Below are positions 49,058 through 51,638 of a stretch of DNA of 64,000 bases, piece after piece. Source of the DNA: Oleiharenicola lentus (GTDB lineage: Bacteria > Verrucomicrobiota > Verrucomicrobiia > Opitutales > Opitutaceae); assembly GCF_004118375.1 (NCBI RefSeq), contig NZ_SDHX01000001.1, positions 1,677,693 to 1,741,692 on the forward strand. Reading direction: 5' to 3'. Numbering within the stretch: the stretch's first letter is position 1; every line of letters begins with the position of its first letter. Made by a program: the position numbers and the translations under genes. The notes below the pieces were generated by a model that saw only the letters and a program-made list of their open reading frames with translations, made no database searches and was not told the DNA's origin.

Positions 49058-49518
49058 TGAACAAACCCTGGAAACTCATTCTGCTGCTGACCGGCATCTT
49101 CCTGGCCGGCGGCGTGGCCGGTTCGTTCCTCACGGTGCGCTTCGGCCGCAACTGGATCAATCAGCGCGTGGCCACGGAGAAGTGGGCGCCCGAGCACCTT
49201 CGCAAGCTTTCCGAACGCCTCGAGCTGACGCCCGCGCAGGTGGAAAAGCTCAAGCCGATCGTGCATCGCAACATGGAGGAAATCGGCCGGCTGCGCAGTG
49301 ATTCCATGAAGGAAACCCGCGCGGTTTTCGAGCGCATGGAACGGGAGATCGCCGCTTTGCTCACGCCTGAGCAAAAAAACAAGTTCGACGAACTCAACCG
49401 CCAGAAGCGCGAACGCCTGCGGAAGCTGATGGACAAGCGCTCCGGCGAAGAGTCCCGCGACGGTGCGCGTCCGCCTCCGCCCCCGCCGGGCGGGGCACCG
49501 CGCGAACCCGGCACCTGA
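49054..49518 (+). CDS. Spy/CpxP-like periplasmic protein
   Basis: 154 aa. One N-terminal helix (LILLLTGIFLAGGVAGSFLT) is followed by long helices with LTPAQVEKLKPIV and LTPEQKNKFDELNRQKRERL, the paired LTxxQ motifs of the Spy/CpxP/heavy-metal-resistance group. A Pro-rich tail (PPPPPPGGAPREPGT) ends it. These proteins sense or buffer envelope stress; here it likely feeds the ECF sigma factor encoded first in the operon. Confidence 0.85.
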   Translation: MMNKPWKLILLLTGIFLAGGVAGSFLTVRFGRNWINQRVATEKWAPEHLRKLSERLELTPAQVEKLKPIVHRNMEEIGRLRSDSMKETRAVFERMEREIAALLTPEQKNKFDELNRQKRERLRKLMDKRSGEESRDGARPPPPPPGGAPREPGT

Positions 49519-49570
49519 GCCCGTTTTTATTTTGGTTGCAGGGGGAGGGGTGCGGCCTACGGTCCGCCTT

Positions 49571-49666
49571 GGCCAGGCGCCATGCATGGGCAGGCGCGTG
49601 AACCCCGCCAGGGCCGGAAGGCAGCAACGGTGACGACGTTCTCCCAGTGCCGTGGAGTGCCTGGCC
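49571..49666 (+). ncRNA. ffs: Signal recognition particle RNA, small bacterial type (4.5S)
   Basis: Contains the near-universal SRP core GTGAACCCCGCCAGGGCCGG followed by AAGGCAGCAACGGTGACGAC, which binds Ffh. Ends pair as GGCCAGGC (49571) with GCCTGGCC (49666), closing a 96-base hairpin without an Alu domain. It lies immediately upstream of dnaX, the same neighbourhood as in many bacteria. Confidence 0.95.
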
Positions 49667-49668
49667 AC

Positions 49669-49697
49669 TTTCTTTTTTCGCGACGCGAAAAAAGAAA
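49669..49697. terminator. 29-base near-perfect palindrome after ffs
   Basis: TTTCTTTTTTCGCG, single A, CGCGAAAAAAGAAA: 14-bp arms, two bases after the SRP RNA end. The T-run at the start could help stop ffs transcription, but the layout (T-run before stem) is not a classical terminator. The element continues into a G/C-rich stretch before dnaX. Confidence 0.5.
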
Positions 49698-49802
49698 CCG
49701 CGCCGAAGCTCCGCCGCGCCGAGCAAGGGAGGGTGGTCCGGGAAATTCCGAACATCGGGCTCGCCTTTCTGTTTTTCTGACCTCTGATTTCCGACCTCTG
49801 GC

Positions 49803-50948
49803 ATGTCCGGCTCCTATCAAGTCATCGCCCGCAAGTGGCGCCCGCAGACCTTCGACGACGTCGTCGGGCAGGACCATGTGGTCCGGACGCTGAAGAACGC
49901 CATCGCGCGCAACCGCATCGCCCATGCCTACCTGTTCGTGGGCCCGCGCGGCACCGGCAAGACCAGCACGGCGCGCATTTTCGCCAAGGCGCTCAACACC
50001 ACCGGTGGTCCCAAGGCCGACTTTGACCCCGCTGACCCGATCGCGCAGTCCATCGCCGAGGGCCGCTGCCTCGATGTGATCGAGTTCGACGCGGCCTCGA
50101 ACACGCAGGTGGACAAGATCCGCGAGTTCATCATCGACACCGTCGCCTACGCGCCGGCGCAGGGGAAGTTCAAGGTCTACATCATCGACGAGGTGCACAT
50201 GCTCTCGGCGGGCTCGTTCAACGCCCTGCTCAAGACGCTCGAGGAGCCGCCGGCGCACGTGAAGTTCATCTTCGCCACGACCGACCCGCAAAAGATGCCC
50301 GCCACGGTCATCTCGCGTTGCCAGCGCTTCGACCTGAAGCCGATCCCGACCGAGCTGATCGTGCAGCGTCTGAAGAAGATCGGCGCCGCCGAGAAGATCA
50401 AGGCGAGCGACGCCGCCCTGGCCAGCATCGCCCGCATGGCCGACGGCGGCATGCGCGACGCGCAGTCCATTTTCGACCAGATGATCTCGTTCTGCGGCGC
50501 CGAGATCGGCGAGGCCGACGTGCTTGATGTCTATGGCCTCGTGTCGGCCGCCAAGATTGCCGAACTCGCCGCCGCGCTTGCGGCCGGTGACCACAAGAAG
50601 ATCGTCGCCATCGTGGACGACTGCGACGAAAACGGCCGCGATCTTTACCGGTTGCTCGTGGATCTGCAGGCGCACATTCGCGGCTCGCTGCTCGATTCCA
50701 TTGCCAAGGGCGGCACCAGCGCCTCGCTGGGCTCGCCGATGACCACCGAGCAGCTCACCCGGCTCCTCGACGGCCTGCGCGAAGGCGAGAGCGGGGTGAA
50801 GCACGGCCTGTCGGAGAAAATCAATTTCGAGGTGGCGCTGCTCAAGGCCGTCGAGGCCAGCCGCTCCCGTGCGATCGACAGCCTCATCAAGGAAATCGCG
50901 ACGCTCGCCGAGAGCGCACCGGCCGACGGCTCAAAAAAAAACGACTGA
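49803..50948 (+). CDS. dnaX: DNA polymerase III clamp-loader subunit DnaX, zero-frame (gamma) product
   Basis: 381-aa AAA+ ATPase of the clamp loader. Walker [20 protein letters not shown] (residues about 41-59), Walker [21 protein letters not shown], sensor [20 protein letters not shown], then domain III helices. The zinc-finger cysteines usual in DnaX are missing; that loop is replaced by [20 protein letters not shown]. The frame stops just after a run of nine A (GSKKND). A tau-specific tail is open in the -1 frame, so this is the gamma-like short form. Confidence 0.94.
50933..50941 (+). other. A9 slippery site in dnaX
   Basis: TCAAAAAAAAACGACTGA: nine A's directly before the zero-frame stop. 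A -1 slip on A AAA AAA, or one extra A in the transcript, enters the 111-codon tail. A short stem CTGGC..GCCAG (50951-50970) lies about nine bases downstream and could stimulate the shift. Thermus dnaX uses a comparable A9 run. Confidence 0.8.
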
Positions 50949-51274
50949 CGCTGGCAACTGACGCCGCCAGCCAGGAGCCAGGAGCAAGGAGCAGGGAGCA
51001 AGAGGACGAGGCGCCGACCAGCGCGGTCGTTGCGGACGCCCCAACCGGACCTTCGTCAGAGGAGGAAGCGGCGTTTCTCGCGCAGGAACGCGAGATGGGG
51101 ATTGTTACGCCGGCCCTGATGCACACCGAATCACCGCCCGAAGACAAGGGCAGCCTGCCGCCGTTGGAGGACTTGGTGAAACGAATCCCGATGCCGACGC
51201 GCGACCTGATGGAGGAACTCTTCCGCGCGAAGTTCGTGACGGTGAAACGGGTCCCGCAGTCGGCGCTCAAGTAG
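50942..51274 (+). CDS. dnaX: DnaX tau-specific tail (-1 frame)
   Basis: Open from the A9 run to TAG at 51272-51274. It encodes a low-complexity linker, coded in part by GCCAGGAGCCAGGAGCAAGG repeats, followed by a conserved-looking end: [20 protein letters not shown] then [19 protein letters not shown]. Fused to the zero-frame part it gives a protein of about 490 aa. In other bacteria the tau tail binds the polymerase core and DnaB. There is no independent start or promoter here. Confidence 0.78.
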
Positions 51275-51638
51275 CCGGCCCGACCGGCCAGGTGTCGCCC
51301 ACCGGCGGGAGCCCGTGGTGCGGACGGAGGTAGAGGTAGGCTTGGGCGGAGGGGGCGTGGGGATTGGGCAGAAGCAGCACGTCCACGCGTTCGTAGAGGC
51401 CTTCGTCGAGTCCCTCGAGGCGGTCGAGTTCGGCGAGGCAGGCATCATCGACGGACCAGAGTTCGCCGGTTACGCCGCTGGTGTCGCCCGGGGCCCGCAC
51501 CATGCCCGGATAGTCGCCAAGCGAGTAGAGGGTGAAGCCCGGCTCGGTGCGCACCGCGCCGAGGTATTTCTGACCCTCGAGAAACAGGTGGTTCGATCCG
51601 CCCCGCTTCAGCGTGCCGTAGACGAAGACCGTGGTCAT
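51267..51638 (-). CDS. Gamma-glutamylcyclotransferase-like (GGCT/AIG2) protein
   Basis: 123 aa with the family opening VFVYGTLKRGGSNHLFL (YGTL motif), YPGMVRAPGDTSGVTGELWS and the catalytic Glu region in LDRLEGLDEGLYERVDV. Members form 5-oxoproline or act on gamma-glutamylamines. It overlaps the end of the dnaX tau tail by eight bases tail to tail. The start overlaps the PP2C stop (ATGA), so it is coupled to that gene. Confidence 0.9.
   Translation of the reverse strand: MTTVFVYGTLKRGGSNHLFLEGQKYLGAVRTEPGFTLYSLGDYPGMVRAPGDTSGVTGELWSVDDACLAELDRLEGLDEGLYERVDVLLLPNPHAPSAQAYLYLRPHHGLPPVGDTWPVGPAT

Follow-up and report, generated by a model that had tools for sequence, protein, structure and literature searches.

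The dnaX gene of Oleiharenicola lentus, within the 64,000-nucleotide stretch of DNA that we analysed (the window), closes its zero frame just past a run of nine A's, and a conserved, selected tail lies open in the -1 frame behind the run. From comparison across the order we consider it probable (about 0.77) that RNA polymerase slips on this run and that one gene yields both a gamma-like and a tau-like DnaX. Such slippage would produce mRNAs with extra or missing A's. Transcripts in the template frame would stop two codons past the run and encode a short, gamma-like DnaX of 381 residues, and those with one additional A (or two fewer) would enter the -1 frame and encode a tau-like DnaX of about 490 residues, the tail of which carries a conserved C-terminal segment that would tie the clamp loader to polymerase and helicase. 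The tau-only part of known DnaX proteins binds both of these partners. We infer the placing of the slip in transcription, its efficiency, and the making and use of both proteins from the evidence set out below.

The head of the zero frame matches TIGR02397 dnaX_nterm in NCBIfam (E 2.7e-121) as well as DNA_pol3_gamma3 and DNAX_ATPase_lid in Pfam, and the gene's DNA occurs as a single copy in the genome. Flanked by a C on either side, the run is read in the zero frame as TCA AAA AAA AAC GAC TGA. The -1 frame starts from the first A of the run as AAA AAA AAA and stays open for 113 codons (KKK... to ...RVPQSALK). An A9 followed by a tau tail in the -1 frame, and a zero frame of 381 codons ending just behind the run, is what the original prediction had described from the letters, correctly in both respects; its count of 111 open codons falls two short of ours. 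The coordinates are collected in the table.

Features of the dnaX locus in the window, in order of position
Feature	Position	Strand	Support
Bacterial small SRP RNA (RF00169, 64.8 bits), just upstream of dnaX	49571-49669	+	Rfam
dnaX zero frame, gamma-like product, 381 aa (ATG 49803, TGA 50946-50948)	49803-50948	+	NCBIfam, Pfam
A9 run, putative slippage site, TC[A9]CGACTGA	50933-50941	+	run of at least nine A's in 177 of 208 order loci
tau tail, -1 frame (stop TAG 51272-51274)	50942-51274	+	open frame, dN/dS 0.30
TGA closing the +1 frame after 8 codons	50959-50961	+	frame reading
Conserved C-terminal segment of the tau tail	51155-51271	+	order-wide tail profile

The -1 tail of the window is under purifying selection. 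Across 23 loci from two genera, the window included, dN/dS is 0.30 for the tail in this frame and 0.17 for its C-terminal part, and the two other frames of the same region give 1.08 and 2.17. Searched alone against Pfam and NCBIfam, the tail matched no family in either. The run itself stands out against its genome: the 4.71 Mb contain two A9/T9 sites, this one and an intergenic one, and the lysine codons of the dnaX core are AAG in 22 cases and AAA in 1, with AAA AAA at the run, so the presence of an A9 in dnaX is more than chance. A9 is not rare in every genome of the order, as 17 others gave 3 to 41 hits each, with overlapping hits and both strands counted. The second site of the window's genome (L232 1501-1509; G000:C2:69756-69764) lies 21 bases upstream of an ORF that, judged by eye, presumably resembles NusA.

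For comparison we assembled 212 dnaX loci of the order by a tblastn-based search, comprising those from 185 of 253 matching genomes of the order, 24 more, and 3 from named assemblies (L033-L035). Loci were chosen by listed coordinates and family spread, irrespective of frame, and 149 of the 212 carry genus labels. L001 (the same gene as L002) and L032 (the same core as L017) were left out before counting, and the exclusion of loci cut by contig ends (L124, L200, L237, L238) left 208 that could be scored. By inference the order is Opitutales and the family of the window, referred to here as f1, is Opitutaceae; L032, from an assembly named Opitutaceae, has a DnaX core identical to that of L017, which belongs to the window's genus.

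A run of at least nine A's is present in 177 of the 208 scoreable loci and in 21 of the 26 families sampled. It is 9 to 13 A's long and lies 7 to 79 nt past projected residue 368. The frame in which the tail follows is not constant: among the 177 run-bearing loci it is -1 in 111, zero in 38 and +1 in 28. (L251 was reassigned by hand from -1 to zero because the conserved segment sits in its zero frame.) An iterated profile of the tail recognised 174 of the 177 in the proposed frame and none of 354 wrong-frame readings, most of the right-frame hits being members of its own training set. A profile built from 59 f1 tails alone found 48 of the 118 other tails and none of 236 wrong-frame readings (E<1e-3); outside its training set it recovered 22 of 52 tails in -1, 20 of 38 in the zero frame and 6 of 28 in +1. 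Because the tails are recognised in their proposed frames and never in the wrong ones, we regard the tails in all three frames as one homologous part of the protein.

On a DnaX-core tree, which was built by a quick method and does not recover the outgroup as one clade, the tail frame switches at least 18 times, or at least 14 times if L003, L135, L142 and L163 are set aside, and shuffled frame labels give a mean of 60 switches and a minimum of 53. Frames are mixed within seven of the genera with labelled loci, and in six of the seven the gain or loss of a single A fits the switch, as judged from flanks that were compared by eye and that are loosely alike in L212. A9 becoming A10 moves the tail from -1 to zero in L003 and from zero to +1 in L142, L212 and L214; A10 becoming A11 moves it from +1 to -1 in L163; and A10G becoming A12 moves it from -1 to zero in L135. 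L003 above all, and the other lone cases in fragmented assemblies, could be errors.

Family f1 comprises 62 loci, of which 59 come from genomes and 3 from assemblies carrying the name Opitutaceae or Opitutae; a contig end cuts one of the 62. Each of the 61 that can be scored has the run, at a length of 9 to 12 A's, and the tail behind it is in -1 in 59 and in frame in 2. This supports the proposal that gamma is the zero-frame and tau the shifted product, the reverse of E. coli. Of the 21 loci in the window's genus, 18 have TC[A9]C, 2 have GT[A9]C or CT[A9]C, and 1 has TC[A10]C, namely L003, in which the tail is in frame and the assembly consists of 700 contigs. G[A10]G, soon followed by a stop, is found in many other genera.

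The two frames that do not lead into the tail are closed quickly. Both end within 8 codons of the run in 147 of the 177 loci (83%), compared with 6.6% of 3835 positions taken as control within these genes. This contrast is to be read with the provisos that the loci are related by descent, so that percentages are not independent counts, and that the tail frame was called as whichever stayed open longest, a rule biased towards short non-tail frames in a way that the control shares only partly. An earlier subset of 144 run-bearing loci gave 85% against 6%, and in 18 of 21 families the longer non-tail frame has a median of at most 10 codons. Quick closure of both frames is expected if mRNAs with differing numbers of A's enter all three. 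If ribosomes slipped by -1 on a heptamer, the tail would be expected in -1 only, no more than seven bases would be needed, and nothing would constrain the third frame. Tails in all three frames, a run kept at nine A's or more and the closing of both non-tail frames together therefore fit transcriptional slippage better than -1 frameshifting. Mixed shift directions for one function also indicate transcriptional realignment by the criterion given in PMC3711429 (Antonov et al. 2013). The original prediction had named programmed frameshifting and transcript slippage side by side; comparison favours the second, short of proof, and leaves the ribosomal route the less favoured of the two.

That the tail is reached by programmed -1 ribosomal frameshifting on A AAA AAA or A AAA AAC, with the products reversed relative to E. 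coli, is the strongest of the alternatives and in our judgement an unlikely one. An in-phase slip heptamer is present in 100 of the 111 loci with a -1 tail (A AAA AAG in 56, A AAA AAC in 44, the window among the latter), and ribosomes may for this reason add to the shift there. Yet 28 tails lie in +1, which cannot be reached from such a heptamer, and a run of at least nine A's, longer than a heptamer needs, is retained in 139 of the 140 out-of-frame tails found. Nor are the usual stimulators apparent at the window, where folding gives no clear structure past the run (z +1.38) and no SD-like 4-mer is seen nearby by eye. A comparison of 45 of the 111 loci in the -1 class and of all loci in the zero (38) and +1 (28) classes revealed no enrichment of hairpins downstream of the run by folding in any class (mean z -0.57 for -1, -0.20 for zero and -0.50 for +1, control -0.10). 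Upstream of the run, SD-like 4-mers are only slightly in excess in the -1 class, at 22% against 15% in the control. These 4-mers are commoner than in the control in the zero class (58% versus 16%) and the +1 class (32% versus 14%), where they may stem from shared ancestry or represent a stimulator. An Rfam scan of 49300-51500 and of 12 loci, with E up to 5, returned the SRP RNA and matches below the cut-offs, and no frameshift element.

The genome encodes a tRNA-Lys(CUU); according to PMC5009743, a separate AAG-reading tRNA has been suggested to disfavour ribosomal slippage where it occurs. A search with one loop pattern, which matched 8 places with no tRNA among them, did not locate tRNA-Lys(UUU), and we assume that it is present since AAA must be read.

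The run is absent from 31 of the 208 loci, so that some lineages can dispense with the system. In these the tail profile matches in the zero frame in 24 (many of them weakly, with E up to 0.39), in no frame in 6 and in -1 in 1. In-frame tails without nine A's are clear in L180, L186 and L191 and occur in most of families f7 and f25, and in f27 with weak matches; eight more distant loci (L036-L039, L041-L044) have them as well. In-frame tails in relatives without an A-run had been named in advance as what would count against the reading, and they do occur in the order and beyond, but not among the 61 loci that could be scored in the window's own family. The run is missing from the small genomes of f7, f25, f27 and f28 (26 loci), and f26, also with small genomes, has A9 in 7 of 7. 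In three small genomes of f28, dnaX (L281, L284, L285) stops close to where gamma would end, lacks the run and matches the tail profile in no frame, and is possibly gamma-only.

The single run-less locus with a -1 tail, L162 (G196, C2:91200-93700), is also the one exception among the out-of-frame tails and speaks for the ribosomal route. It has A AAA AAC with GGGAG 10 nt upstream and, 7 nt downstream, a hairpin GCCGGAA..TTCCGGC of -14.9 kcal/mol, a stability reached by 30 of 6050 windows of equal length that were drawn from the cores of some of the loci. This predicted element is like an E. coli-type ribosomal frameshift cassette, and it comes from one genome, 80% complete, the sole sampled member of its genus. 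It resembles a published candidate from another phylum: PMC5009743 has tau made apparently by ribosomal frameshifting in a few bacteria, among them Chlorobium phaeobacteroides, whose candidate makes tau as the shifted product, as in the window, and has E. coli-like signals, as in L162. That candidate was put forward there as ribosomal frameshifting, from unpublished work, and the window differs from it in showing no such signals.

The proposed transcriptional slippage has its closest relatives elsewhere. In dnaX slippage of the Thermus type, mRNAs of varying A number give the two products at about 1:1. In Thermus thermophilus itself an A9 leads to mRNAs of varying A number, with stops in both other frames (PMC1088944, PMC5009743). 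The window shares the A9, the quick stops in the other frames and, as proposed, gamma and tau from one gene, but its template frame encodes gamma, whereas Thermus has tau in the template frame, as 38 of the run-bearing relatives do. Among 76 dnaX loci of other bacteria (two of them cut by contig ends), 9 have at least nine A's at or after projected residue 368, in every case A9 or A10, with an in-frame tail and with the two remaining frames closed within 11 codons. These Thermus-like slippage candidates are L040, L045, L046, L051, L053, L054, L066, L069 and L092, and they suggest that such arrangements may be common. With E. coli the window shares the production, here a proposed one, of gamma and tau from one gene at a slip site of lysine codons; unlike there, where the shift leads to gamma and is aided by an SD-like element and a hairpin, the shift here would lead to tau, and neither stimulator is evident. 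The E. coli heptamer is A AAA AAG, and the window has A AAA AAA and A AAA AAC instead. The place of gamma was long disputed even in E. coli, according to PMC5009743.

The window's dnaX belongs to an already described class of two-ORF genes in which tau is made by recoding. In PMC3711429, 17 such dnaX genes from 12 genera have a -1 shift, and for the 9 with A10 transcriptional realignment was inferred. The window has the features of that type, with a gamma stop right after the slip site, poly-A at the transition and a tail selected in the shifted -1 frame, so that tau needs recoding. All 17 of those genes are -1, unlike the present order with its additional zero and +1 tails, and genes of this order may be among the A10 set. 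PMC3711429 was the sole match for dnaX slippage together with Verrucomicrobiota in the open-licence literature searched, the accessible parts of which held no report of a roaming tail frame beside a retained run or of dnaX recoding in this order.

Four further explanations were weighed. Under replication slippage or phase variation, cells with A9, A10 or A11 in their DNA would make gamma or tau accordingly. Related species do differ in run length in ways that alter the frame, and L003 has A10 against the A9 of other sampled loci of its genus; but 20 of the 21 sampled loci there have A9, and DnaX is required in every cell, which makes this reading very improbable. We think as little of the idea that the tail is a separate protein begun within its own frame by coupled re-initiation. 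Although an ATG, GTG or TTG precedes the last 45 codons in 133 of the 139 run-bearing out-of-frame tails (ATG in 70), no ATG is found there in 69 of the 139, and re-initiation leaves the retention of the run unexplained, including that in the 38 loci with the tail in frame. Homopolymers are error-prone, and L003 itself could be an error of sequencing or assembly, but as the source of the offset such error is refuted for the family, in which 59 of the 61 loci share it, the single-contig genomes G003 and G013 included. A broken gene that has lost tau and keeps the tail as a relic, for which the seemingly gamma-only dnaX of f28 offers a parallel, is ruled out by a tail dN/dS of 0.17-0.30 in its own frame and by one profile that spans the order.

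The tail is short, consisting of a variable linker, strongly divergent between relatives, and a conserved segment some 40 residues long. When hhalign was used to compare its C-terminus with in-frame tails from eight outgroup loci, of which seven are labelled Verrucomicrobiota and one Proteobacteria, the result was a probability of 1.7% and an E of 0.029, a likeness to the C-termini of those tails that is suggestive and not significant. The linker is also a place where repeats are found. In L003, L011, L013 and L018 it contains the repeat GTAGCGGCGGTCTATGACCGCC with the frame unbroken, translated as ..AAVYDRR.. in L011, L013 and L018, and GTAGCGGCGGTCTATGACCGCC occurs 6 to 89 times, on both strands, in five genomes of the window's genus. 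The window's own linker holds at 50970-51009 a string of near repeats, GGAGCCAGGAGCAAGGAGCAGGGAGC. At the other end of the gene, the SRP RNA also adjoins dnaX in L025 and, cut off and below the gathering score, in L147.

Gene callers that make no provision for such recoding would enter dnaX here as a short protein. One order has retained the run across no fewer than 14 to 18 frame switches, and its persistence across them and in the 38 loci with an in-frame tail is evidence from comparison that it matters for both products to be made. Comparison alone also helps to tell transcriptional from ribosomal recoding, and natural variants (A9, A10 and A11 in related species, and the run-less L162) make the choice of mechanism directly testable. 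We lean, by a narrow balance, towards the view that slippage made the frame past the run selectively near-neutral. The tail could then lie in any frame, with replication slippage switching it repeatedly and RNA polymerase slippage restoring both proteins, and since in L162 the run has seemingly been replaced by a ribosomal cassette, the two mechanisms could substitute for one another within the order.
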